A stretch of 64,000 bases of DNA from Prosthecobacter vanneervenii (lineage in GTDB: Bacteria > Verrucomicrobiota > Verrucomicrobiia > Verrucomicrobiales > Verrucomicrobiaceae). This document shows, piece by piece, positions 16,200 through 37,881 of the stretch. A model generated the notes under the pieces. It was not told where the DNA came from, did no database searches, and saw only the letters and a list, made by a program, of their open reading frames with translations. The stretch covers positions 186,001 to 250,000 of the forward strand of contig NZ_JACHIG010000003.1 of the NCBI RefSeq assembly GCF_014203095.1, given 5' to 3'. Within the stretch, counting starts at the first letter, position 1. The number at the start of each line of letters is the position of its first letter. The translations under genes were made by a program, and so were the position numbers.

Positions 16200-17452
16200 A
16201 AATCCTCTATGTACACGAACGATTTGGCGCCCTAGCGGGAGCTGAGGCAAACGCCTTCATCACTGCACAGGAACTGGGGGCACGAGGACATTATATCGGC
16301 ATCCTGCACGGCCCGGGAACCGGCAAAAATGAAGATGGTTGGAAGCAAGCTTTCAGGGAACGCTACCCGATCACGGAAGATGCAGCAGCACAGACCTATG
16401 CAGCGCTGCAAAGCTTTCGACCGGACGCGGTTTATGTCCACAAAATGGCCAATCTCGAGGTGATCCAGACTTTGGTGGAAAGTGGTGTGCCACTGATACG
16501 GATGGTGCACGATCACGACATCTACTGCATGCGCAGCTACAAGTATCACTACTTCTCGCGCAAAATCTGCACACGGGCCGCATCTCTATACTGTGTCTAT
16601 GGCTGCGGTGCCTGCCTCGTCAAAAACAGCGGTGGTGCGTTCCCTCTCAAATGGGTTAGCTACCGGTCCAAGAAGAAGGAGATAGCGCTAAACCGCCGCT
16701 TTCACCGCATGATTGTCGTCACACAATACATGCGCGATGAACTGCTTCGAAATAGCTTCGACGCCGGCAAAATTGAAATTCACGCTCCTGTGCCACGCAT
16801 GGGTGATCCTGATCTAAGGAGCAGCTTCAGTGACCGCAATCTGATTCTCTATGCCGGACAGATCATTCGAGGCAAAGGGGTGGACGTGCTGCTCGAATCA
16901 CTGGCTCGGGTGAAGTCAAAATTTGAGTGCATCATTCTTGGAGACGGAAACCACAAGGCATACTGTGAAGAGCTTTGCCGCAAACTGGGCCTGCAGCACA
17001 AGGTGCAATTCAAGGGCTTCATTCCGCAGGAGGAGCTGAAGGCTTACTACAGGGAATGCAGCGTCGTCGCCCTCAGCAGCGTCTGGCCTGAGCCGATCGC
17101 CACCATAGGTCTCGAAGTGATGCGCTATGCGCTTCCTGTGGTGGCATTTGACGCAGGCGGCATCAAAGACTGGCTCAAAGACGGCTTCAATGGTCATCTC
17201 GTGCCCTGGATGAACCGGGACGCATTCGCCTCATCTCTTGACAGCCTCCTGCAAAACAAAGAGCAGGCCAGAAAATTGGGCGAGAACGGCCTCAGGCTGG
17301 TAAGCACCCGTTATGATTTCCCCTCGTACATCGCCGGTCTTGAGGAGATGTTTGGACGAGCGATCGCAGAAGCTGAACAAAATTGCGCAAGGCAGATTCC
17401 CCCACTTGAGGGGGGTTACAGCTTGAAGTCCACCATTAAAGTTTCTGCGTGA
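16196..17452 (+). CDS. GT4 glycosyltransferase
   Basis: 418 residues, GT-B fold. The N-terminal half has the GAEANAF acceptor-side motif and HDHDIYCM. The C-terminal half has a nucleotide-sugar site with [18 protein letters not shown] and the GT4 E-x7-E element (EPIATIGLE), then [16 protein letters not shown] Cys-rich insert ([10 protein letters not shown]) sits mid-protein. It probably adds one sugar to a lipid-linked EPS repeat unit at the cytoplasmic face. It overlaps both neighbours by 4 bases. The last ~18 residues are encoded by a copy of the dispersed palindrome, so the C-terminal tail is not family sequence. Donor and acceptor unknown. Confidence 0.88.
17397..17417 (+). repeat. Dispersed GC-rich palindrome, copy 2 (inside a gene end)
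   Basis: TTCCCCC-ACTTGA-GGGGGGTT, arms of 5-7 bp. It lies inside the 3' end of the glycosyltransferase gene and is translated as PPLEGGY. Confidence 0.6.
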
Positions 17453-18207
17453 TGAAACGAGTGACTGTTCCAGAGCCTCCTGAAGTGCGGCGAATCCTTA
17501 AGGCGCAGAGCCGTTTGGGACGCCTTAGAATGCGCTTCGCTATGCGTCTGAAACGGTGCCTCTGGCTGGCTGTCGTGAACGGCACCCATGCTGTGAAGCG
17601 CCTTTTTGACATTGTCATCAGTATCATTGCCCTCATCCTGGCGGCACCGCTGATGATCGTCATCGCACTGCTGATCCGCAGAGATGGCGGTCCGGTATTT
17701 TTCAAACAGCGGCGTATTGGCTTCAACGGCAGGGATTTCGAAATGCTGAAATTCCGTTCCATGTGCGTGGATGCAGAAGCCAAGCTTAGTGCGCTTCTGG
17801 CGCAAAATGAGAAATCCCAAGGCATCACTTTCAAGATGAAGAATGATCCTCGCATCACTGCCATAGGTCGTTTCATCCGCAAGGCATCCATCGACGAGCT
17901 TCCACAATTTTTTAATGTGCTGCGTGGGGATATGTCAATCGTAGGACCTCGCCCCTGTCTTCCGCGAGAAGCGGCGCTCTACTCCAACACGGATCGCAGA
18001 CGCCTTCATGCAAAACCAGGCATCACCTGCCTTTGGCAGGTGGGCGAGCGCGAAGGACGCTTCTGGGAAATCGGAGATCGCAACAGCATCGACTTCGGAG
18101 AGCAGGTCTCACTGGATGTGCGTTATATCGAAAGTCATTCATTTCTGCGTGACCTTTGGATTCTGCTCAAAACAATACCGGCCATCGTTCTAGGGAAAGG
18201 CATGTAA
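17449..18207 (+). CDS. Priming sugar transferase (undecaprenyl-phosphate sugar phosphotransferase)
   Basis: 252 residues of the bacterial sugar transferase (polyprenyl-phosphate hexose-1-phosphate transferase) core. One hydrophobic segment near residues 48-72 (RLFDIVISIIALILAAP), then KFRSMCVDAEAK, the hallmark DELPQFFNVLRGDMSIVGPRP, and CLWQVGER. The short form without the five-helix N-terminal WcaJ domain. It transfers sugar-1-phosphate from a nucleotide sugar to undecaprenyl phosphate, the first step of repeat-unit assembly at the inner membrane. It starts inside the stop of the preceding gene (ATGA). Sugar specificity unknown. Confidence 0.93.
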   Translation: MMKRVTVPEPPEVRRILKAQSRLGRLRMRFAMRLKRCLWLAVVNGTHAVKRLFDIVISIIALILAAPLMIVIALLIRRDGGPVFFKQRRIGFNGRDFEMLKFRSMCVDAEAKLSALLAQNEKSQGITFKMKNDPRITAIGRFIRKASIDELPQFFNVLRGDMSIVGPRPCLPREAALYSNTDRRRLHAKPGITCLWQVGEREGRFWEIGDRNSIDFGEQVSLDVRYIESHSFLRDLWILLKTIPAIVLGKGM

Positions 18208-18209
18208 CC

Positions 18210-19520
18210 ATGGACGTTTTTATCATCTGCCCTGATCACCGTGAAAGCGCCGGATTTGCCCGACGCATCCGCCCGCTGGCACTGCTGCCCGTGCTGGGAA
18301 GATCTCTTTTAGATCTCTGGCTTGAGCACCTAGCAGCTGCGGGAGTCAAACACGCCACTATCTTGGCTGCAGACCGCCCGCATGAAATCCGCCATGCTGT
18401 GGACCAAGGCGGGAAATGGGGCCTCTCCGTAACAGTCCTTTCCGTTAAACGCGAACCCAGCATCGAGGAAACTCGCCAGCGGTTCACCGGCAAGGATTCA
18501 GCCGGCAGAGTGCCTAACATCATCACTCTGGACACTCTTCCTGACATGCCGCACAAGCAGCTTTGGGAGAGCTCGGCAGCACTGCACGACATCCTGCACC
18601 ACCGACTGCTCGTCACTCCAGCCGAGTCGCACCTGACCATGAGGGAGGTCGCGCCCAAGGTTCATGTGAGCACACGCGCCCGTGTGTCAGCTACAGCCAA
18701 AATCGAAGGGCCAGTTTGGATTGGGCCTCAGGTCATCATCGGAGACAACGCCCAAATCCTGGCCGGCTCAGTCATTGAAGAAGCAGCTTACATCGATCGT
18801 GGCGCCATCGTTGGTGATAGCTGGGTGGGGCCCAACACCTATGTTGGAGCGCTGACGAGCGTGCAAAACTCATTTGCCTGGGGAGGTGGTATTGAGAACT
18901 GGCGACACGGATCGTTTCTGGAGATCACGGACGATTTCCTGCTCACCAACCTCACACACAAACCCTTTGGAGGTGTGCGTAGCAACTGGATGGTCCGCAT
19001 CGCTGGACTTGTGCTGATGTTGCTGACTTCACCACTGGCACTTTTGTGCGCGCTATGGTCACTGCTCGTCAAGTGGCAGGCTGTCTTTGAGAATCACCAG
19101 GTAGTTCTGCCGCCCCCTGCAAGACAGGACCGTTACAGCCCAAGCACGCGCATCTATTCGTTAACCTCTGGCCCCGGGCTATTCTCACGGTGGCCGGAGC
19201 TCTGGTCTGTCTGGAAGGGAGACATGCATCTGGTAGGCAATCGACCGCTTTCACCTGCACGCGCATCCGTTTTGACCAATGAGTTTGAACGCATGTGGTT
19301 CGATGCCCCGGCTGGTGTCTTTTCCTATGCAGACATCATGGAGGATGGAATGCCTCATGACAACGATACCGCTCACAGCGCCTGCTACGCCATTCATCGC
19401 TGCCTGAGACTGAACTTGCGCATTTTGTTGCATTGCCTGCCGCGTTTTGCCATTCCCGTGCTCCGCAAGGAGCATGAGATCACACCCAATAACCATACTC
19501 AAACCTGCGCACAGCCATGA
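18210..19520 (+). CDS. Nucleotidyltransferase-like / left-handed beta-helix / sugar-transferase-like fusion
   Basis: 436 residues from the ATG at 18210, two bases after the preceding stop. The N-terminus resembles a sugar-1-phosphate nucleotidyltransferase (IRPLALLPVLGRSLLDLWLEHL) but lacks the usual GxGxRL loop, so it may be inactive. Residues ~150-245 are hexapeptide repeats of a left-handed beta helix (VWIGPQVIIGDNAQILAGSVI). After a hydrophobic segment (GLVLMLLTSPLALLCALWSLL) comes a tail with WSVWKGDMHLVGNRPLSP, which matches the RGDMSIVGPRP element of priming sugar transferases although the rest of that enzyme is missing. It may be a scaffold or regulator of the transferase encoded just upstream; that is inference. 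Confidence 0.7.
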   Translation: MDVFIICPDHRESAGFARRIRPLALLPVLGRSLLDLWLEHLAAAGVKHATILAADRPHEIRHAVDQGGKWGLSVTVLSVKREPSIEETRQRFTGKDSAGRVPNIITLDTLPDMPHKQLWESSAALHDILHHRLLVTPAESHLTMREVAPKVHVSTRARVSATAKIEGPVWIGPQVIIGDNAQILAGSVIEEAAYIDRGAIVGDSWVGPNTYVGALTSVQNSFAWGGGIENWRHGSFLEITDDFLLTNLTHKPFGGVRSNWMVRIAGLVLMLLTSPLALLCALWSLLVKWQAVFENHQVVLPPPARQDRYSPSTRIYSLTSGPGLFSRWPELWSVWKGDMHLVGNRPLSPARASVLTNEFERMWFDAPAGVFSYADIMEDGMPHDNDTAHSACYAIHRCLRLNLRILLHCLPRFAIPVLRKEHEITPNNHTQTCAQP

Positions 19521-19810
19521 CGCTCACACCCACCGCCCATCTCACCGCCCCTGCTGAACTATGCGCCGCCACCGCACGCCAGTGGCGCGACCGGCTTGAC
19601 CATGAAATCAAAGCTGAACATGAAGAAGTCTGCATTGACCTTTCGAAAACTCGGTTCATCGACAGCTCTGGCCTGGGTGTGCTGCTCACCTTGAACAAGA
19701 ATCTTCGTAGCAGGGGAGTCAGCCTCAAACTTCTGAATCCATCAACAGCCGTTTGCCAGCTGATTGAGCTGACACGACTTCACCGTGTTTTTGAAATTAT
19801 TCACGATTGA
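19517..19810 (+). CDS. STAS-domain anti-sigma-factor antagonist
   Basis: 97 residues, a single STAS domain like SpoIIAA/RsbV: CIDLSKTRFIDSSGLGVLLTL, with the phosphorylatable DSSG at residues 49-52. In partner switching, the unphosphorylated STAS protein binds a serine kinase of the RsbW type and frees the kinase's other partner. The next gene, 6 bases downstream, encodes both an RsbW-like ATPase and an RsbU-like phosphatase, so the natural kinase and phosphatase of this protein are adjacent. It overlaps the preceding gene by 4 bases. No sigma factor is encoded in the window. Confidence 0.92.
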   Translation: MTLTPTAHLTAPAELCAATARQWRDRLDHEIKAEHEEVCIDLSKTRFIDSSGLGVLLTLNKNLRSRGVSLKLLNPSTAVCQLIELTRLHRVFEIIHD

Positions 19811-19816
19811 AACCGC

Positions 19817-21589
19817 ATGTCGCATCCACAGCAGCAGTTCAACGGCTTCCGGCTTGATTTTCCAGCAACGCTGGACGATGCCCGTGAAGCCGTCCGTGCT
19901 GTGATCCTGTGGCTGGCCAATGAGAAAGTCAGTGCAGAGGAATGCCAGCAATGGGAGCTGGTGCTGGCGGAAGCTGCGAATAATGCTGTCTTGTACGCAA
20001 CACCGGAGCAGGCAGGACACTCCGTGCGTATTGAAGCAACTCTCGCTCTTGATGAAGTCGAGATCCGCATCACTGACCATACTTGCGGCTTTGACTGGCC
20101 GGAGCATGTCGAGCTGCCAGAAGACGATGAGTCCGATCATGGCCGCGGGCTTTTCATCATCAGTTCGCTCACCGATCAGGCATCCTATCTTCGAGGCCAG
20201 GGGCAAAACGTGCTCCTCCTAAAATCCAAGCTTAAAACTCCGCTGCCAGCCAAAGAGAACACCGAAGAGACGCTTGATCTCATGACGGCGGAAGTGGCCT
20301 CGTGTTACGAAACTCTGGCCAATATTTTCCGGCTCATCGCTGATGCAGGCAATGACGTGGAGCCTGTGGCTCTGGCAACTCGCTGGCTGGAGGAGCTGCG
20401 TGAGCTGGCAGGAGCAGATTTTCTCATCTTACGAATGGCATCCAGTGATGGCCTTCTTATGCCGCTGCTTGGCAGCGCACCCTCCCCATTGAACTGGGAA
20501 GCACATCTCGATCTGCGCAGTGCAGACTATATTGAAAGCAGGGCCGCCAAAACACGACAAGACCAGTGGTTTGACTGTGGCACAGACTTTATGCCTGCAG
20601 ACCCGCTGCTTAAGGCGGGCAAGCACATCAGCGGATTGACGCACCCGCTGGAAAGTGGCGGCGACCTCGCCGGAGTGCTGACCGTCGGCGTCTTCCAGCC
20701 GCACTGGGAGCCTTCAGCGCGTGAATTGAATGTGGTGAGAAGTCTTGGCGATTTTCTCGGTGCATTGCTCCACGGTCTTCATCGGCGTGATGAAGCGAAT
20801 CAAGCACGTCTCATGAAAAGAGAGCTGCAGATCGCAGCGGAGATTCAACGCTCACTGCTGCCGACCGAACTCCCCCAAAGCCCGTTTGTTCATTGTGCCG
20901 CTCATCTTGCCACGGTGGGGGAGGTAGGCGGCGATTACCTCGATGCCATCCTCCTGGCCGATGGCAGCATGCTTTTTGTGGTGGCCGATGTCATGGGCAA
21001 AGGAGTGCCTGCGGCCTTGTTTGCCACCGCGTTTCATAGCCTGCTGCACTCGCACCTTGATCTGGCGTCAAAACCCTCCGCCCTGATGAACCGCCTTAAC
21101 CAGGCCATGTTCTCTGAACTGGACCGGGCGGACATGTTTATCACAGCGCAGCTGGTGCATGTGACAGCTGATGGGCAGTGGCTCCAGGTCTGCGGAGCCG
21201 GGCACGCTCCACTGCTTATGAGCAATGGCAGGCAGGTTCAAGAGGTCTCCGCAGACGGCCCTCCTCTGGGGGTGACTGCCGACGCCAGCTATCAGGACTT
21301 TTCGACCAGCTTTTCTTTGCACTCCCATGTGCTGCTGCACACGGACGGCTTGAGCGATGTGGTCTCAGGCGGGGGCATTTTAAGCCGTGATGTACTACAC
21401 GAATGGCTCCTCAAGACGGCTGCAGGCAGCACCGGAGCAGTCGATGCAAGAGACAGCCTCCATCGCCTCCACCGCAGTGCCGTCGATGCCTCACATCAGC
21501 AAGATGACGCCACTTTTCTAATCATCACTCGAGTCTCTCATTCTCACCCCTCTGCGGCACACAACTCCCTGTCCCATGCAAAAAGATAG
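19817..21589 (+). CDS. RsbW-like ATPase fused to GAF and SpoIIE/RsbU-type PP2C phosphatase
   Basis: 590 residues. Residues ~10-135 form a serine-kinase-type HATPase: N-box ELVLAEAANNAVLYA, G1 DHTCGFDW, G2 HGRGLFII. Residues ~165-330 form a GAF-like sensor. A helical linker (LMKRELQIAAEIQRSLLP, typical before RsbU catalytic domains) leads to the phosphatase at ~355-575 with GGDYLDAI, VVADVMGKGVPAAL, HTDGLSD and QQDDATFLII carrying the metal-binding Asp residues. One chain could therefore both phosphorylate and dephosphorylate STAS partners. Likely substrates are the STAS protein just upstream and the STAS domains of the GT26 fusion at 31307. Opposing activities in one chain imply tight control through the GAF domain, which is inferred. 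Confidence 0.88.
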   Translation: MSHPQQQFNGFRLDFPATLDDAREAVRAVILWLANEKVSAEECQQWELVLAEAANNAVLYATPEQAGHSVRIEATLALDEVEIRITDHTCGFDWPEHVELPEDDESDHGRGLFIISSLTDQASYLRGQGQNVLLLKSKLKTPLPAKENTEETLDLMTAEVASCYETLANIFRLIADAGNDVEPVALATRWLEELRELAGADFLILRMASSDGLLMPLLGSAPSPLNWEAHLDLRSADYIESRAAKTRQDQWFDCGTDFMPADPLLKAGKHISGLTHPLESGGDLAGVLTVGVFQPHWEPSARELNVVRSLGDFLGALLHGLHRRDEANQARLMKRELQIAAEIQRSLLPTELPQSPFVHCAAHLATVGEVGGDYLDAILLADGSMLFVVADVMGKGVPAALFATAFHSLLHSHLDLASKPSALMNRLNQAMFSELDRADMFITAQLVHVTADGQWLQVCGAGHAPLLMSNGRQVQEVSADGPPLGVTADASYQDFSTSFSLHSHVLLHTDGLSDVVSGGGILSRDVLHEWLLKTAAGSTGAVDARDSLHRLHRSAVDASHQQDDATFLIITRVSHSHPSAAHNSLSHAKR

Positions 21590-21983
21590 CCCCATACTGG
21601 TCGTTGATGACGAACCGCACATGAGGAAAGTAGCTGAGTTGAGCATCAAGCCCCTCGGGCACCCAGTGCTTCTCGCAGCTGACGGACAGGAAGCAGTTCA
21701 ACTGGCACGCAGCAGACGCCCTTGTGTGATACTCCTTGATCACATCATGCCCGTCATGGACGGCAAAACCGCGCTGCAGCAGCTGAAGTCTGACCCTGAG
21801 ACAAGCCACATACCAGTCATTATTTTAAGCTCCCGTGGCCAGCTTGCTGTAGGCCAGTATCAGGGTTTTGAAACTGCGACCATGTTTGTCTCAAAGCCAT
21901 TCAGCCCGGCACTGCTTCGTCGTGAGGTGGAAAAGCTGATCACGGCCTCCGTCTCTGTGGAACCTCAACTTGCATCATCATGA
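21576..21983 (+). CDS. CheY-like single-domain response regulator
   Basis: 135 residues, a receiver domain only: acidic pocket VVDDEPH (residues 9-15), phospho-acceptor Asp55 in VILLDHIMPVMDG, and switch region VIILSSRG with FVSKPFSP. It has no output domain, so it acts by protein contact or as a phosphate shuttle. It starts inside the end of the kinase/phosphatase gene (14-base overlap) and overlaps the next gene by 4. It could pass phosphate between the hybrid kinase at 13212 and other receivers; not shown by sequence. Confidence 0.93.
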   Translation: MQKDSPILVVDDEPHMRKVAELSIKPLGHPVLLAADGQEAVQLARSRRPCVILLDHIMPVMDGKTALQQLKSDPETSHIPVIILSSRGQLAVGQYQGFETATMFVSKPFSPALLRREVEKLITASVSVEPQLASS

Positions 21984-30045: not shown

Positions 30046-30090
30046 TTTGAAAGCGGTTTGCGGTTTTTGTACCAGCTGTTCACCACGCAC

Positions 30091-31320
30091 ATGAACATCC
30101 TCGTCGTTTACCCTTACATCCCCTACCCGGTTGACCGCGGCACTTATCAGCGTGTGTTTCACCTGCTGTGTGCACTGGCCAGAGATCACACCATCGATCT
30201 GATCGCGCTGTCTGAAAAGGGTGAGCGGGTGGAACACCGCTGTGTTTTCGAAAAATTTTGCCGCAAGGTGGTCTTCGTGCCCTTTGAGCACCCCCCATGG
30301 CCGAGGCTCTTTCCAAACCGCCTTCTGAACTCACTTCCCACGACCATTCGCCACTGGTGCCTGCCTCAGCTTGCGGACACCATCAGCGATATGCTGGATC
30401 ACAATGAGTACGATCTCGTGCATGTGTGTGACATTGTCATGGCCCAGTACTTTCTCGATGATCACCTTGAGATACCTTTGAGCGTCGATCGCAGCAGAGT
30501 GGATCTTCAGTTTCAGCAGGAACAACATGCCCGCATGCCTAAAGGGCTGAAGTCTTCACTGCTTTACCGCGAACAGGAATGGAAGTTGCGGCGCTTTGAA
30601 CACAAGGTCGCCCAACGCAGCGCCGTGCAAGTCGTCTGCGGTCCAGATGATGAAGAATTCATTCGCTCGGAAGTGAGCATTAAAATGCCCGTGCAGGTAG
30701 TCACCAATGGCGTTGATCTCGACTACTTCAGCCCTGACGGGACAGATGTGCCCCGTGATTCGTCACCCACGCTCATTTACTGCGGCGCCATGGACTACAT
30801 GCCAAATGTGGACGCCTTGCGCTGGTACTTCGAGGAAATTCATCCCCGTGCCAAAAGCCTGGTGCCAGATTTGCAGGTTTTGATTGTTGGAAAATCCCCG
30901 ACTGATGAAGTGCTCTCTTATGGCAGCCTTCAAGATGTCACCGTCACAGGCGGAGTGCCTGATGTGAGGCCTTGGTACCGACGCGCCTGGGCGCAGATAG
31001 TGCCGCTTAGGATTGGCGGCGGTACCAGGCTGAAAATCCCCGAAAGCATGGCCATGGGCACTCCAGTGATCAGCACCACCATTGGTGCACAAGGGCTCCA
31101 GCTGGTGCATGGCATGGATATTCTACTGGCAGACACGGCGGATATGTTTGCGCACTACATCGAGCGCATGCTGCACGACGAAGTTCTGCGTCAGAAAATC
31201 GAAACACGCGGCATGCAGACCTGCAAGGCACGTTTTGGCTGGCCTGGTCTCGGCAGGCAGCTCAGCAGCTACTATTCCAAGCATTTTCAGCCATCGAAGC
31301 AACTGCATGAACACAACTAA
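30091..31320 (+). CDS. GT4 glycosyltransferase of the EpsH/PEP-CTERM-locus-associated type
   Basis: 409 residues from the ATG at 30091 (MNILVVYPYIPYPVDRG), preferred over an in-frame start at 30058. Features are YPYIPYPVDRGTYQRVFHLL, VDLQFQQEQ with a preceding SVDRSR, VVTNGVDLDYFSP, IYCGAMDYMPNVDALRWY, and VPLRIGGGTRLKIPESMAMGTPVIST. This wording is that of the sugar transferases frequently found in exosortase-linked EPS loci, although no exosortase is present here. It overlaps the GT26 gene by 14 bases. Confidence 0.88.
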   Translation: MNILVVYPYIPYPVDRGTYQRVFHLLCALARDHTIDLIALSEKGERVEHRCVFEKFCRKVVFVPFEHPPWPRLFPNRLLNSLPTTIRHWCLPQLADTISDMLDHNEYDLVHVCDIVMAQYFLDDHLEIPLSVDRSRVDLQFQQEQHARMPKGLKSSLLYREQEWKLRRFEHKVAQRSAVQVVCGPDDEEFIRSEVSIKMPVQVVTNGVDLDYFSPDGTDVPRDSSPTLIYCGAMDYMPNVDALRWYFEEIHPRAKSLVPDLQVLIVGKSPTDEVLSYGSLQDVTVTGGVPDVRPWYRRAWAQIVPLRIGGGTRLKIPESMAMGTPVISTTIGAQGLQLVHGMDILLADTADMFAHYIERMLHDEVLRQKIETRGMQTCKARFGWPGLGRQLSSYYSKHFQPSKQLHEHN

Positions 31321-32797
31321 TGCCGCATCCAATCCGCGCAGCGGACCTTCGCTCTCCATTCTCGGGGTCCCATTCGACAATGTGACCACAGGTCAGACTT
31401 TGGAAGTCATTGCAGGCATGATCGCATCGCGAAAGCCGCATTACATCGCTACCGCAAATGTTGACTTCACCGCACTGGCTCTCTGTGATGAGGACCTGCG
31501 GCGCATTCTCCTAGATGCTCATCTCGTTGTCTGCGATGGCATGCCACTCGTCTGGGCCTCCCGATGGCTGGGCAATCCGCTGCCAGAACGCGTGGCGGGC
31601 TCTGATCTCGTCCCGAAACTTCTTGAGATGGCACAAGAGCGAAACTGGAGTGTCTTTTTTCTTGGCGGGCAGAAGGAAGTGGCTGAAATGGCAGTGAGAA
31701 AAGTGCGTGAAAAGCATCCAGATCTGCGGATCGCCGGCATGCTGTCCCCTCCTTTCAAACCGCTGCTGGAAATGGATCATGCGTCAATCTGTGCTCAGAT
31801 TCGCAGCACAAATCCGGATCTGCTCTTTGTCTCCTTCGGCTGCCCAAAGCAGGAAAAATGGATCGCCATGAACTACCTGCAGGCCGGTGCACCTGTCACT
31901 ATTGGAGTGGGAGCCACGATCGACTTCCTCGCCGGCCATATGAAACGCGCACCGCGCTGGATGCAAATGATCGGGCTGGAATGGCTCTATCGCCTGCTTC
32001 AGGAACCACGCCGTCTGTTTAAACGATATGCCACCGACTTCGTTGTGTTTGGCTTGGCAATCGTCAAGCAATGGTGGCTGACACGGAGCGGCAGGCAGAA
32101 AAGCGTCACCACAAGCACGCATGAAATCCCTGCAGCTGTTCCGGTCACAGCACCGCCAGCACCAACATCCAGTATTGCGGAAATTCGCTCCCCATCTCGC
32201 CTGGACGCAGCGGAAGTGCGTTCCATTGAGCAAAGCTGGATGAGCATCCTTGAGGGACCGGAGGAAGGTGTGGTGATTAACTGTGCAGAGACACAATTTA
32301 TCGACAGCACCGGACTCGGGCTGCTGATGCGTGTGCAAAAGCGCTGCCGCCAGTCTGGCAAGCCATTGATGCTGGCCGCTGTTTCCCCTGCGGTGCTCAA
32401 GCTTCTGCAGATGACACGCCTCAGCTCCCTCTTCCATCAGGCAAGCAGTCGGGAAGAAGCTCTGGAGAAGATTATCAGTTCCAGCCTGATGGTCACTCAT
32501 TCTATTCCAAAAGTTGAGCCGCTCCATCTTGACTGGAGTGGTGCTGTGACAACCAGCGGTGCGGATGGACTCTGGCGCGGAGCCTTGGGAGTCATGCAAA
32601 ATGCCGCGGACTCGCGCAACCCTGTCGTCATTGACCTTCAAGGTGTGCAGGTGATGGACAGCGGCGGCCTTGGCCTGATGGCTCGCATCAAGGATCACGC
32701 CAGTAGCCGTCACATCAATCTTCGTTTCACCAATGCCAGCCCCGTGGTGCACGAATCACTGCGCCATGAACATATGGAACACCTCCTCGCCTCATGA
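31307..32797 (+). CDS. GT26 (WecG/TagA/CpsF) glycosyltransferase fused to two STAS domains
   Basis: 496 residues from the ATG at 31307. Residues ~15-255 are a complete GT26 enzyme: LGVPFDNVTTGQTLE, ATANVDF, VCDGMPLVWASRW, RVAGSDLVP, VSFGCPKQEKWI and GVGATIDFLAG. GT26 enzymes add a sugar (ManNAc-type) to lipid-linked intermediates. After a Pro/Ala/Thr linker comes STAS 1 (~288-385, FIDSTGLGLLM, Ser334) and STAS 2 (~405-496, VMDSGGLGLMA, Ser452). Both keep the DS-x-G loop where SpoIIAA-type proteins are phosphorylated. The fusion ties a biosynthetic enzyme to partner switching, with a cognate kinase/phosphatase encoded at 19817. The frame has no stop or composition break between the domains. 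A catalytic role for the fusion partner is not expected; regulation is inferred. Confidence 0.9.
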   Translation: MNTTNAASNPRSGPSLSILGVPFDNVTTGQTLEVIAGMIASRKPHYIATANVDFTALALCDEDLRRILLDAHLVVCDGMPLVWASRWLGNPLPERVAGSDLVPKLLEMAQERNWSVFFLGGQKEVAEMAVRKVREKHPDLRIAGMLSPPFKPLLEMDHASICAQIRSTNPDLLFVSFGCPKQEKWIAMNYLQAGAPVTIGVGATIDFLAGHMKRAPRWMQMIGLEWLYRLLQEPRRLFKRYATDFVVFGLAIVKQWWLTRSGRQKSVTTSTHEIPAAVPVTAPPAPTSSIAEIRSPSRLDAAEVRSIEQSWMSILEGPEEGVVINCAETQFIDSTGLGLLMRVQKRCRQSGKPLMLAAVSPAVLKLLQMTRLSSLFHQASSREEALEKIISSSLMVTHSIPKVEPLHLDWSGAVTTSGADGLWRGALGVMQNAADSRNPVVIDLQGVQVMDSGGLGLMARIKDHASSRHINLRFTNASPVVHESLRHEHMEHLLAS

Positions 32798-33951
32798 AAA
32801 TTGCAATATCCACCAGTGTTATTCAGCGTGGTAAAACTGGCGTGGCCCAGTATGTCCTGGCTCTGACTCGCGCTCTCATGCCCTATACAGATGTGGTCAA
32901 ATTTCACATCCTGGCACTGGCTCAGGACCTGCCGCTTTTTGATTTTGCACGAGGGCGCATGGAGATCATTCCTGTAGATGAGCGGTGGCGCTCCCCAGTG
33001 CGCAACATATGGTGGCACCAGCGCGTGCTACCCCGATGGCTCGATGAGCAGCAGATCGATGTGCTGCATGTGCCGAGCTATCGGCGCATGGTATGTTCTG
33101 CGCACTGCAATCTCATCTCCACCATCCACGATCTGGCCCCCTTTCATGTCAAAAAGAAGTACGATCTGGCCCGAATGCTTTACGGACGCATAGTGGTCAA
33201 GCTTCTTGCCCGGAGACAGAATGGGATCATCGCGGTGAGTTCCAGCACAGCCAGAGATGTCGAGCGCTTCTTCGGCGTCCCAGTGCAAAACCAAAATGTC
33301 ATTCTCAATGGCATCGACCACAGTCGTTTCAACTTAGGCGACCCAGTCGCGGCCCGCACTCTCGTTGAGTCGCGCTGGCAGCTCATGGAGCCATTTTTCC
33401 TCTATGTGTCCCGGATTGAGCACCCGGCCAAAAATCACATACGGCTGATTGAGTCCTTCAACCAGTTCAAAACAAATACAGGCTCCCCCTGGCAGCTGGT
33501 TTTGGCAGGCAGCGACTGGCACGGTGCAGAACACATCCATTCTGCCGCCCGGCAGTCGCCCTTCAGCAAAGACATCCGCTTCCTGGGCTTTGTAGAAGAT
33601 GCCGTGCTTCCAGACTTGTACCGAGCTGCATCGGTCATGGTGTACCCCTCTTTGTTTGAGGGTTTTGGCCTGCCTCCGATCGAAGCCATGGCATGCGGTT
33701 GCCCGGTCATCTGCTCCAATCGGGGATCGCTGGCAGAGGTTGTAGGATCAGCTGCACGTATCATCAATCCGGAAGATCAAGCTCAAATGGCCGACGCGCT
33801 TCAGGATGTCGCCATCCATCATGAAAAGCGGGAGTCTCTGATTCAGGCCGGTCTTCTCAATGCAAGGCGTTTCAACTGGGACGAAAACGCCAAACGCGTC
33901 ATGGAAGTTTATGAAAAGCCCTTCACAGGTTCCCGCAGTTGGGGGGGTTGA
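32794..33951 (+). CDS. GT4 glycosyltransferase
   Basis: 385 residues, GT-B of the mannosyltransferase/WbaZ-like GT4 group. Elements are STSVIQRGKTGVAQYVLAL at the N-terminus, TIHDLAPFH, AVSSSTARDVERFFGVP, FLYVSRIEHPAKNHIRLIE, PSLFEGFGLPPIEAMACG (E-x7-E) and CSNRGSLAEVVGSAARIINPED. Starts inside the stop of the GT26-STAS gene. The last few residues (SRSWGG) and the stop are formed by a copy of the dispersed palindrome, so the natural end has been replaced. Confidence 0.92.
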   Translation: MKIAISTSVIQRGKTGVAQYVLALTRALMPYTDVVKFHILALAQDLPLFDFARGRMEIIPVDERWRSPVRNIWWHQRVLPRWLDEQQIDVLHVPSYRRMVCSAHCNLISTIHDLAPFHVKKKYDLARMLYGRIVVKLLARRQNGIIAVSSSTARDVERFFGVPVQNQNVILNGIDHSRFNLGDPVAARTLVESRWQLMEPFFLYVSRIEHPAKNHIRLIESFNQFKTNTGSPWQLVLAGSDWHGAEHIHSAARQSPFSKDIRFLGFVEDAVLPDLYRAASVMVYPSLFEGFGLPPIEAMACGCPVICSNRGSLAEVVGSAARIINPEDQAQMADALQDVAIHHEKRESLIQAGLLNARRFNWDENAKRVMEVYEKPFTGSRSWGG

Positions 33952-33988: not shown

Positions 33989-34849
33989 ATGTCGAACTTC
34001 CTTCAGCACTGGCAGCTAGACGTGAAACCTTTTGAGGCCACGTGGGACACGCGTTTCTATTACCGAAGCCCCCAGCATCAGGAGGCATTGGACAGGCTGA
34101 TTTATCTGGCCTCCGAAAAAACCATGAACCTGGGCATGCTCACAGGTGAGATCGGCTGCGGAAAGACGATCACCACTGCCATCCTGGCCCAAAGCCTGGA
34201 CCCATGCGCATACATTGTCGTCAGCTGCACAAATTCGGGATTCAGCTTCGATGAGCTGCTGCAGTATATCCTCTGGCAGCTTGACCCTGAGGCCACGCAT
34301 ATGCCGGAAAGCAAATTCGGCCGCTGCGAGCACCTGAAAAAACTTTGTGAAAGTGCCGCATCACGTGGCAGACACGTGATTGTTCTCCTCGACGAGGCCC
34401 AGGATCTGCCGGAAGACACTCTGCGTCAGCTTGGATGGCTGACAAACTTCAATGGAGAAGGCAGGCCTTTGTTGACCCTGCTTCTCATAGGCCAGCCTCC
34501 GCTGCGTCGGCTAGTGAACAACAATCAGGCGATTCAACAGCGGATCGGCCTCCGGTTTCACCTGCTTCCTCTGGCCCAGGAAGCCACGGCAAACTATGTC
34601 ACTCACCGTTTGAAGGCGGCAGGGCATTCAGATGGCTCTCTCTTCGATGAAGATGCGCTCATCCACCTGCATCATTTCTCGCGGGGCATTCCGCGCGAAA
34701 TCAATCGCACTGCGAAACTCTGCATGGAACATGCCTGGGCGTCAGGGGATGAACGCATCACTGCACAAATTTTGCACGACGTGGCATGTGATTTGTACCG
34801 TCAGGACAACCTGATCAGCAGCGCCGCCGTGCTTGCCAGCGCCACATGA
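33989..34849 (+). CDS. ExeA-type AAA ATPase
   Basis: 286 residues from the ATG at 33989 (MSNFLQHWQL); the frame is open upstream inside the preceding gene, but the family begins here (WxLxxxPFExxxDTRFYY). Walker A GEIGCGKT at residues 53-60, Walker B VIVLLDEAQDL, sensor LTLLLIGQPPLR, and the C-terminal HHFSRGIPREINRTAKLCMEHA. ExeA-like ATPases power secretin assembly in type II secretion; close relatives sit in many EPS loci beside Wzz/Wza genes, as here. Overlaps the Wzz-Wza fusion gene by 4 bases, supporting a shared role in polymer export or length control. Confidence 0.88.
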   Translation: MSNFLQHWQLDVKPFEATWDTRFYYRSPQHQEALDRLIYLASEKTMNLGMLTGEIGCGKTITTAILAQSLDPCAYIVVSCTNSGFSFDELLQYILWQLDPEATHMPESKFGRCEHLKKLCESAASRGRHVIVLLDEAQDLPEDTLRQLGWLTNFNGEGRPLLTLLLIGQPPLRRLVNNNQAIQQRIGLRFHLLPLAQEATANYVTHRLKAAGHSDGSLFDEDALIHLHHFSRGIPREINRTAKLCMEHAWASGDERITAQILHDVACDLYRQDNLISSAAVLASAT

Positions 34850-37800
34850 ATGCGACGCCTACAACGTCCTTCAGCCTTTCGGCCATCAATCGCAAGCGCG
34901 GCATCACCAGCCCAGCTCCACGGCAGCCGGATGCCTTTGTGCGGGCCGAGTCACCCGCATTTTCCGCTTCTTCAGTGCCTTTGGCAGCAGAGGCTGAGTC
35001 TCCACAGCCCGCCATCAAGCTGCCATTTGACCCTTTAAGGATCATTGATGCGCTGGTCCGCCGATGGTGGCTCATGCTAGCCTTTGGCATCGCATGTGCA
35101 GGAGGGATGTTAGCCTTGGGACTGCTGCGTTTTGAAACCCTTTACACAGCTAAATCCCAGATCATCAAACAACAGCTCGCGTCTGCATTTCGGCAGTCGG
35201 ATTCAGGAGAGTCTTTCAAACCCAGCGACCTCACCATCCCCACGCTGATGTCTCTGATGTACTCCGGCTCCACCATCGCCACTACCAGCAATCAGCTGGG
35301 ACATCGCTTTGAAGAAAGCGCCATCCGCTCAGGCCTGATTGTTTCCGCAGAGCGCAATACTGACATTCTAAACATCAGCATGACATCAAACGTCAGCGCC
35401 GAGGCTGTGATGGAAATGCTGAAAGCCTACACGGAAACAGTGCTCCTGCTGTCCCGTGATCTTCAGCGCGGAGACGCCTCCGCAATGAAGACATTTTTGC
35501 AGAAGCAGATTGAACGCACAGACGCCGATCTCCTGAAAGTCAACGAGGAGCTCCTGGCCTATGGTCGTCAGTCTCAATTGCTGGATGCCGACAAACAGAT
35601 GGACGCCTGGCTGGGAGAACTGGGTAATTTCACCCTTAAGTATGAGACTCTTAAGCTCGATCACGATACTCTTGATCTTCGCATTCAAGGAATAGAGCGC
35701 GAACTCGGCAAGGTGGACACAAACGCCGCACGTGTGGACAGCGCGAAAAAAGAGCTCGCTGAACTCAGGGTGCGCTACACAGACGAGCATCCTTCCGTCA
35801 TTGAGGCAGTGGAGAAACTCAATGCCTTGGAGCAGCAGATGAAAAATTCCGGCCTCCGCACCGATGCACCACCAAAGCCCGGTGAAAGCAATGTGGCTGA
35901 GAGCCTTTACCTGGATCTGGTGCGTCTGCGCGCAGAGAAACAGGTCATGGGAGAGCAGTTGCAGAAGCTGCTTCAGGTGCGCGAGGGCATTAATGAGCGT
36001 CTGGCGAAGCTGCCACGCCAGGCCATGGAGTACGCCCAGATCAAATCCCGCAAGCAGACACTCGAAACCTCCCGCGCGCTGTTGTCAGGGAGACAGCGCG
36101 AAGCCGCTCTCTACGAGGAAAATTCACAGGGCTACTTCAGGCTGTTTTCCATGGCACGCGTACAGGATGTTAGCGCCGTCAAGCCCACGCAAAAACTCGC
36201 CATGGTGGGAGCTGGCGGATTTGGAGCTGGCGTCGTTTTGACAGCTCTGCTTGTGATTGCCTCCTCTCTCTCAGACGGCCGCATGCTCAGCAGCGGAGAT
36301 TTGAAACGCGCCACCGGCGCCCCCGTTCTCGGTGCTCTGCCTGCATCCCGCACCACAGAAAGTGCGGATGAATGGGCTTTCCGCACCTGGACCAAGCTGC
36401 AGCCCGTGCTCCACACGCCAGCAAATGGGGGAGGCATAGTCTGCGGCGTCCTTCACAGTGCAGAAGACGATGCCGCCGAACACTTCATCCACCTGCTTGC
36501 CAAAGCAGCAGTGCGCCGAGGTCTCAGCTGCATATGCATCACCAGCAAACTGACTGAAGATGCCCTGGCGCTCAGCAGCGCAGTTGAGAACCCGGAACGC
36601 CCCGCACGCATCTCACACGATGTTTCTGACCGCCCGTACCTAATCGGCATGGATGAGGAATGGCAGTGGACCCCTGAACACAGAATGCACTGGCAGGCCG
36701 CTCTTGCGCACTGGCGTCAGCTGCCCGGCACCGTAATCCTTATCGAACTGCCTTCCGTCGAGCGCCCAGAGACGCTGCTCATTGCCGAACAACTGCCGAA
36801 CCTCATCTGGGCAGGCTCCAGTGGTGGAAGCCTGGTGCAAAAGATCCAGGACACTCTGCTCATGTATCGTGATGCCGGTTGCAGGCTGGTCGCCGCATTG
36901 CTGGACCGGGCGCCGGAACTGCGTCCTGCCTTGCTGGCCCGCTTTGCCATCCTCGCGCTCTTGCTTGGCGGCAGCATCCCCGCCCAGGCACAAACCAGCC
37001 TTCCGCTGGGTCCCGGCGATGCCATAAACATCAACATGCCCGGATTCGAAGGCCATGAACGAAAGGACATAGCCGTGGGTCCGGATGGCAGGCTGACTTA
37101 TCTTCAGGCTCATGATATTGAGGCCGCAGGACTCACCATCGATCAATTGCGCGAAAAGCTGAATCTTGAGCTCAGACGCTACTATCGTAATGCGCGTGTG
37201 GTGGTCACGCCCTCCACATTTCAGAGCCGCAAAGTTTACGTGCTTGGAAAGGTCGTCAAAAAAGGTGCCATCAATCTGGACCGCCCTTTGACCATTCTTG
37301 AGGTGGTTTCAGAAGCAGGCGGATTGGAGACAGGTTTGTTTCAGCAAAACACCGTCGAGCTCGCTGACCTAGGCCGCAGTTTCGTCATGCGGGGGCAGTC
37401 TCGGCTCCCGGTCAATCTTGAGGCCTTATTTCTGCACGGCGACATGTCTCAAAACGTGCGCGTAGAGCCTGGCGACTACCTCTATTTCCCATCCGCAAAT
37501 TCCAATGAAATCTATGTGCTCGGGGATGTAAAAATGCAGGGCACCCAGGGTCTGCTGGCCCACACCTCCGTCCACAGTGCCATCGCGCAGGCCGGAGGCT
37601 TTACCGCAAAAGCCTACAGCAAACGTGTTCTGGTGGTTCGCGGCTCCTTTGAGAAGCCGGAACGTTTCATCGTGGACATGGATGATGTACTCACCGCGCG
37701 CGCCAAAGGCTTCCGTCTGGAGCCGAAAGACATTGTCTATGTGGCCGACAAGCCATGGGCGCGCGCAGAGGAGCTGCTCCACATAGCGATCAATGCCTTC

Positions 37801-37881
37801 CTTCAGGGGGCGGTGTCAAGCTGGACCAGGGCCAACATAGGGCCCTACATCCAGCAGCCTTTGCTCCCTCAGATCCGCTGA
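34846..37881 (+). CDS. Wzz-like chain-length protein fused to degenerate BY-kinase and Wza/SLBB export domain
   Basis: 1011 residues. The Wzz/GumC-like part has TM1 at ~74-94, a long periplasmic coiled coil (~110-440) and TM2 at ~451-474, preceded by the Pro-containing segment VSAVKPTQKLAM. Next is a cytoplasmic region like a BY-kinase ATPase (~500-690) in which the P-loop position reads VLHSAEDDAAEH with no GxxGxGK[ST], and VILIELPSVERPE stands for Walker A'; no Tyr cluster follows. A third hydrophobic segment (~696-713, ending SIPAQA) leads to a Wza-type domain: LPLGPGDAININM, then SLBB repeats VYVLGKVVKKGAI and IYVLGDVKMQGTQ. Three TMs place the Wza-like domain in the periplasm. Alternatively SIPAQA is cleaved like a signal peptide and releases it. 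Usually these are three separate proteins. Confidence 0.88.
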   Translation: MNATPTTSFSLSAINRKRGITSPAPRQPDAFVRAESPAFSASSVPLAAEAESPQPAIKLPFDPLRIIDALVRRWWLMLAFGIACAGGMLALGLLRFETLYTAKSQIIKQQLASAFRQSDSGESFKPSDLTIPTLMSLMYSGSTIATTSNQLGHRFEESAIRSGLIVSAERNTDILNISMTSNVSAEAVMEMLKAYTETVLLLSRDLQRGDASAMKTFLQKQIERTDADLLKVNEELLAYGRQSQLLDADKQMDAWLGELGNFTLKYETLKLDHDTLDLRIQGIERELGKVDTNAARVDSAKKELAELRVRYTDEHPSVIEAVEKLNALEQQMKNSGLRTDAPPKPGESNVAESLYLDLVRLRAEKQVMGEQLQKLLQVREGINERLAKLPRQAMEYAQIKSRKQTLETSRALLSGRQREAALYEENSQGYFRLFSMARVQDVSAVKPTQKLAMVGAGGFGAGVVLTALLVIASSLSDGRMLSSGDLKRATGAPVLGALPASRTTESADEWAFRTWTKLQPVLHTPANGGGIVCGVLHSAEDDAAEHFIHLLAKAAVRRGLSCICITSKLTEDALALSSAVENPERPARISHDVSDRPYLIGMDEEWQWTPEHRMHWQAALAHWRQLPGTVILIELPSVERPETLLIAEQLPNLIWAGSSGGSLVQKIQDTLLMYRDAGCRLVAALLDRAPELRPALLARFAILALLLGGSIPAQAQTSLPLGPGDAININMPGFEGHERKDIAVGPDGRLTYLQAHDIEAAGLTIDQLREKLNLELRRYYRNARVVVTPSTFQSRKVYVLGKVVKKGAINLDRPLTILEVVSEAGGLETGLFQQNTVELADLGRSFVMRGQSRLPVNLEALFLHGDMSQNVRVEPGDYLYFPSANSNEIYVLGDVKMQGTQGLLAHTSVHSAIAQAGGFTAKAYSKRVLVVRGSFEKPERFIVDMDDVLTARAKGFRLEPKDIVYVADKPWARAEELLHIAINAFLQGAVSSWTRANIGPYIQQPLLPQIR

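Follow-up and report, generated by a model that had tools for sequence, protein, structure and literature searches.

An exopolysaccharide cluster in the window (the whole 64,000-nucleotide stretch of Prosthecobacter vanneervenii DNA analysed here) encodes a GT26 glycosyltransferase that runs unbroken into two STAS domains. At a probability of roughly 55%, we favor the reading that a partner switch resembling SypA/SypE or RsbV is built into this enzyme, where it sets activity or membrane docking. The elements on which this reading builds, namely the domains, the conserved serines, the selection acting on them, the intact catalytic residues and the gene linkage, are directly observed.

A single reading frame joins GT26 to tandem STAS domains

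The fusion gene and its parts are:

31307-32797, + strand: GT26-STAS-STAS fusion protein, 496 aa (translation; Pfam)
31340-32119, + strand: GT26 (WecG/TagA) domain with C-terminal appendage, residues 12-271 (Pfam, 7mpk alignment, AlphaFold, Foldseek)
32120-32173, + strand: linker, residues about 272-289, fast-evolving and of low model confidence (pLDDT, dN/dS)
32174-32494, + strand: STAS1, residues 290-396, Ser334 codon at 32306-32308 (Pfam, motif, AlphaFold)
32516-32791, + strand: STAS2, residues 404-495, Ser452 codon at 32660-32662 (Pfam, motif, AlphaFold)

Translation gives one open frame of 496 residues whose sole stop is terminal, and whose start codon lies in a 14-base overlap with the upstream GT4 gene. 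Pfam finds one GT26 profile and STAS twice in this frame, confirming the initial annotation's proposal that a complete WecG/TagA enzyme continues into two STAS domains, and NCBIfam assigns the corresponding superfamilies with scores above their cut-offs. The SFGCPKQEKWI motif and the DS-x-G sites at Ser334 and Ser452 that the annotation had read are all present in the translated protein. The annotation had also allowed for a stop between the domains; the same uninterrupted frame in five near relatives (74-79% identity, separate assemblies) excludes this and rules out a sequencing or assembly artefact. Nor is the fusion an accident of assembly: across three phyla (Verrucomicrobiota, Chloroflexota and Acidobacteriota), GT26 loci with a tandem STAS tail number 51 and those with a single STAS number 14, and purifying selection acts on both STAS domains.

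The enzyme retains the catalytic residues and membrane appendage of TagA

Both profile and fold place the enzyme part in GT26: Glyco_tran_WecG (PF03808) matches residues 71-241 over the full profile at 230.4 bits (cut-off 27.4), residues 16-241 align to TagA (PDB 7mpk), and the AlphaFold model of the GT part matches 7mpk with a TM of 0.94-0.95 by Foldseek. Using the 7mpk alignment and the published work on TagA (PMC6493773), we mapped TagA T37, N39, D65, R83, Q167, E168, R214 and R221 to T49, N51, D77, R95, Q182, E183, R229 and R236 of the fusion protein. T49, N51, D77, R229 and R236 are invariant in 47 fusion sequences, while R95, Q182 and E183 are conserved at 90% or more, so that the GT26 catalytic Asp and Thr and the appendage Arg are all in place. 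By sequence, the protein is a GT26 glycosyltransferase for a lipid-linked sugar in the exopolysaccharide cluster, with the transfer itself predicted.

The fusion thus shares its GT26 fold, catalytic residues and C-terminal appendage with TagA/TarA of Thermoanaerobacter italicus (PDB 7mpk, 5wb4; PMC6493773), but TagA has no STAS domains. In the same paper, the TagA-type appendage is described as binding the membrane, giving arginines to the active site and being needed for catalysis. The appendage is intact in the fusion protein, and a predicted long helix (residues 234-271) carries on from it in the AlphaFold model. Because the appendage is kept and the modeled helix extends to residue 271, membrane recruitment is probably intrinsic to the enzyme, and the earlier suggestion that it needs STAS domains for recruitment finds no support.

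The STAS tail carries conserved serines under purifying selection

The STAS pair attaches straight to the TagA-type appendage through a short, poorly conserved linker, with a pLDDT below 50 at residues 272-283 and a dN/dS of 0.19-0.61 over residues 259-288. The modeled tail matches the STAS folds of SpoIIAA, RsbV and SulP (AlphaFold and Foldseek), in a model of the fusion protein that carries no inter-domain confidence. The STAS1 site is DSTG at Ser334 (QFIDSTGLGLLM) and the STAS2 site DSGG at Ser452 (QVMDSGGLGLMA). Both fold and a D-S-x-G aligned to SpoIIAA Ser58 mark the domains as RsbV/SpoIIAA-type STAS.

Across the 51 tandem proteins the serine column holds Ser in 46 for STAS1 and in 48 for STAS2 (one more has Thr), conserved serines in line with the annotation's reading of the fused STAS domains. 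In STAS1, Asp precedes the serine in 35 proteins, and the position two after it is Gly in 32 and Glu in 17; by these counts the full D-S-x-G is lost from about one third, replaced by xSLE or similar, while STAS2 is nearly always D-S. Chloroflexota proteins mostly show the opposite pattern, with DSSA or DSTG in STAS1 and no Asp in STAS2. Only S334, L340, L372, D451 and S452 reach 90% conservation or more among STAS positions in 47 tandem fusions, and at least one DS-x-[GA] site is kept in all 21 Verrucomicrobiota fusion regions examined. Purifying selection is evident from dN/dS in STAS1 (0.11-0.19) and STAS2 (0.03-0.08, with dS near saturation and no calculable value for one of five pairs). 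A recent origin of the pair by duplication of a single STAS is not favored: STAS1, STAS2 and standalone STAS domains cluster largely apart in a tree of 98 columns with many unresolved forks.

A putative partner-switch module in the same cluster

Other genes of note in the cluster are:

17449-18207, + strand: bacterial sugar transferase (initiating phosphoglycosyl transferase) (Pfam)
18156-19520, + strand: hexapeptide protein with partial sugar-transferase domain (Pfam, neighborhoods)
19517-19810, + strand: standalone STAS protein, 97 aa, FIDSSGLG site (SypA/RsbV-like)
19817-21589, + strand: HATPase_c_2 (RsbW-like kinase)-GAF-SpoIIE-type PP2C phosphatase, 590 aa (Pfam, motifs)
21576-21983, + strand: single-domain response-regulator receiver (Pfam)
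30058-31320, + strand: GT4 glycosyltransferase, 14-base overlap with the fusion
32794-33951, + strand: downstream glycosyltransferase, GT4 by reading, conserved neighbor

The cluster also encodes several glycosyltransferases, a flippase, export proteins and an O-antigen-ligase-like protein, in a gene order mostly common to near relatives. The lipid-linked product of the sugar transferase at 17449 is presumed to be the GT26 acceptor. The standalone STAS, HATPase_c_2-GAF-PP2C and receiver genes are found some 9-12 kb upstream of the fusion. The RsbW-like domain that the annotation placed at 19817 is real by Pfam, and the same protein has a PP2C phosphatase domain; its kinase part keeps the conserved Glu, Asn and Asp, and its PP2C part the motifs DxxGKG, TDG and DDxT. 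As the annotation had proposed, the STAS serines have a candidate kinase encoded in the same cluster.

Bacillus SpoIIAA/SpoIIAB/SpoIIE and RsbV/RsbW combine a STAS phosphosite, a HATPase kinase and a PP2C phosphatase with a sigma factor as output. The window shares these three families; the sigma factor output belongs to the Bacillus systems. STAS, HATPase_c_2 and PP2C occur together in a polysaccharide locus, as in a SypA/SypE-like module, with the receiver as a separate gene and not within a SypE-type single polypeptide of kinase, receiver and PP2C. Kinase, receiver and PP2C do share one frame in the G354, G387 and tail-less G407 regions.

The 18156-19520 protein has only the C-terminal part of the sugar-transferase domain, and its homologues adjoin the STAS gene; one Chloroflexota homologue (region L036) gains a nucleotidyl transferase domain. 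It is a possible partner of the switch.

STAS-tailed GT26 enzymes are widespread, and one lineage has probably shed the tail

A first homologue search returned 35 related loci. The phylum-wide search matched 49 of 387 genomes at E 1e-50; of the 30 loci listed, the first profile found one or two STAS domains in 27. Chloroflexota gave a GT26 match in 110 of 251 genomes at E 1e-40 (10 of the best 20 loci tandem) and Acidobacteriota in 33 of 247 (one STAS in 4 of 20 typed loci). Two of 244 Cyanobacteria genomes matched at E 1e-55, neither match extending to the STAS part, and none of 130 matching plasmid records covers 80% of the fusion protein. With duplicates and two truncated loci left out, our tree set held 85 GT26 rows: 51 tandem, 14 single (including L028, which runs off the end of its sequence stretch), 2 with a long tail of no assigned family and 18 tail-less.

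In a quick tree whose root and several forks are weak, tail-less GT4-GT26 proteins of the window's genus and family, seven in all, are nested among tailed enzymes, a placement that suggests loss of the tail in this lineage. Among four of these sister loci examined, two keep the full module and two only a STAS-receiver protein. Since these sisters do without a tail while keeping the module in full or part, the tail appears dispensable in one lineage, which speaks against an essential role. In L053, L055 and L057-L061, GT4 and GT26 form one chain where the window has two overlapping genes; a 919-aa frame in L020 may join GT4, GT26 and two STAS domains.

Switch genes are linked to the fusion in Chloroflexota

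In Chloroflexota we compared nine fusion regions, leaving out two of the ten tandem fusions (G587 and G521), with ten regions around STAS-less GT26 genes. In 8/9 regions the fusion has separate genes for STAS, PP2C, HATPase_c_2 and a receiver no more than about 8 kb away, against 0/10 controls with any STAS, kinase or PP2C (two on contigs shorter than 9 kb; Fisher p 1e-4, relatedness ignored). The module gene families were confirmed for L036 and for the L039 kinase. The eight regions share the order sugar transferase, fusion, 18156 homologue, STAS, PP2C, HATPase_c_2 and receiver, the sugar transferase being seen in seven and the L036 contig stopping short of it; L036 additionally has a PHP-STAS gene interposed. 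In the ninth, G691, neither module genes nor 18156 homologue nor sugar transferase were found.

The Verrucomicrobiota sample comprised 20 chosen fusion regions, mainly on long contigs, plus the window. A non-GT STAS is linked in 13/21 fusions against 7/20 controls (p 0.12), and kinase or PP2C in 9/21 (G029 with kinase only) against 3/20 (p 0.085); these differences are not significant, and we reject linkage as proof in this phylum. Four of the seven controls with a linked STAS belong to the GT4-GT26 lineage, so that the module follows cluster type as much as it follows the tail. A canonical STAS1 site shows no significant association with a linked kinase (p 0.20). Six Acidobacteriota single-STAS loci have no canonical site, and the flanks examined gave no STAS, PP2C or kinase match; the same three were not found near GT26 in Vibrio (L265) or in Paludisphaera (L266). 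HATPase_c_2 searches of five whole genomes were uninformative, returning 7 to 43 matches each, many weak.

A proposed switch in cis and its alternatives

In the switch that we favor, the local HATPase_c_2 domain would phosphorylate a serine in the STAS tail and in the standalone STAS, the PP2C domain of the 19817 protein would take the phosphate off, and the kinase would bind or release the tail according to its phosphorylation. Binding at the tail could gate the step that comes next to the initiating sugar transferase, early in repeat-unit assembly; gating there is possible because the STAS domains follow directly on a TagA-type appendage without whose docking and folding at the membrane there is no catalysis. 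We infer that phosphorylation takes place, which partner binds, which way control runs and that the step is gated. Serine conservation, purifying selection, the module in the window and the Chloroflexota linkage argue for this switch. The tail-less sister lineage, several families without a linked kinase, the non-significant Verrucomicrobiota linkage, the altered STAS1 motif in about one third of proteins, G691 without a module and the missing inter-domain model confidence argue against it.

The tail might instead be a reporter and not a brake. The kinase would then be competed for by the tail and the standalone STAS, and enzyme abundance or occupancy would feed back to the switch, whose output would lie elsewhere, in transcription or another protein. 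In favor of this reading, the standalone STAS carries D-S-x-G in 21/21, the module persists in two tail-less sisters and the cluster includes receiver and LuxR-type regulators. We nevertheless consider it unlikely: why the competitor should be a catalytic enzyme is left unexplained, and no sigma factor was among the cluster proteins scanned. A scaffold, in which the STAS domains serve to assemble the enzyme with other cluster proteins or with itself and phosphorylation plays no part in control, seems to us comparably doubtful, since the serines rank among the best conserved STAS positions and kinase and phosphatase genes sit near the fusion in Chloroflexota; it would accommodate the Acidobacteriota single-STAS forms lacking a canonical site, the changed STAS1 site in about one third of tandem proteins, and the conserved neighbor beside STAS with its partial sugar transferase. 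Low dN/dS in both STAS domains and retention of the tail across phyla make it very improbable that the enzyme has simply inherited a tail of little effect, which is tolerated and occasionally lost, even with a tail-less GT4-GT26 lineage nested among tailed enzymes in the quick tree.

Relation to known STAS systems

The annotation knew of no well-described example. Our literature search likewise found no paper that characterizes GT26-STAS proteins, but examples do exist: the architecture itself is widespread. Moreover, a review (PMC8256260) mentions Anabaena all4160, a glycosyltransferase that carries STAS at its N-terminus, and STAS-glycosyltransferase fusions are to that extent already known as a kind. 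Both all4160 and the fusion join a polysaccharide glycosyltransferase to STAS, and the all4160 STAS is N-terminal, unlike the tail described here.

In Vibrio fischeri, the syp polysaccharide locus encodes the STAS protein SypA, which is phosphorylated on a serine, and the serine kinase/phosphatase SypE (PMC4517449, PMC10120452); SypA works below transcription on a target given as unknown (PMC10120452). The window resembles this system in its polysaccharide locus, STAS protein and kinase-phosphatase regulator; SypA is single-domain, whereas the window has STAS fused to GT26 in addition and the receiver as a separate gene. We raise, as a tentative idea that we think will rather not hold, that the fusion reveals the missing target: SypA-type proteins would bind a lipid-linked-sugar glycosyltransferase, the contact would have become covalent in Verrucomicrobiota and Chloroflexota, and phosphorylation of the tail serine would switch the enzyme. 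Because the fusion often lies near a matching switch kinase and phosphatase, our data suggest that the reach of STAS switches is not limited to genes but can extend directly to the assembly of the sugar coat. A natural STAS-GT26 fusion names one testable target class, a glycosyltransferase that works at an early stage of repeat-unit assembly. Being a single chain, it also lends itself to probing whether serine phosphorylation controls an exopolysaccharide enzyme directly.

Other unusual proteins in these clusters

Within the Chloroflexota module, L036:5607-6725 encodes a PHP domain with a C-terminal STAS, a second case of an enzyme joined to STAS within an exopolysaccharide cluster. In the G018 and G058 regions (L144, L150), which hold tail-less relatives with no linked kinase or PP2C, STAS is fused to a receiver. 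In the window, 34846-37881 is one 1011-aa frame of odd topology, with homologues of similar length, whose N-terminal part looks chain-length-like by eye and whose C-terminal part is a polysaccharide-export domain.
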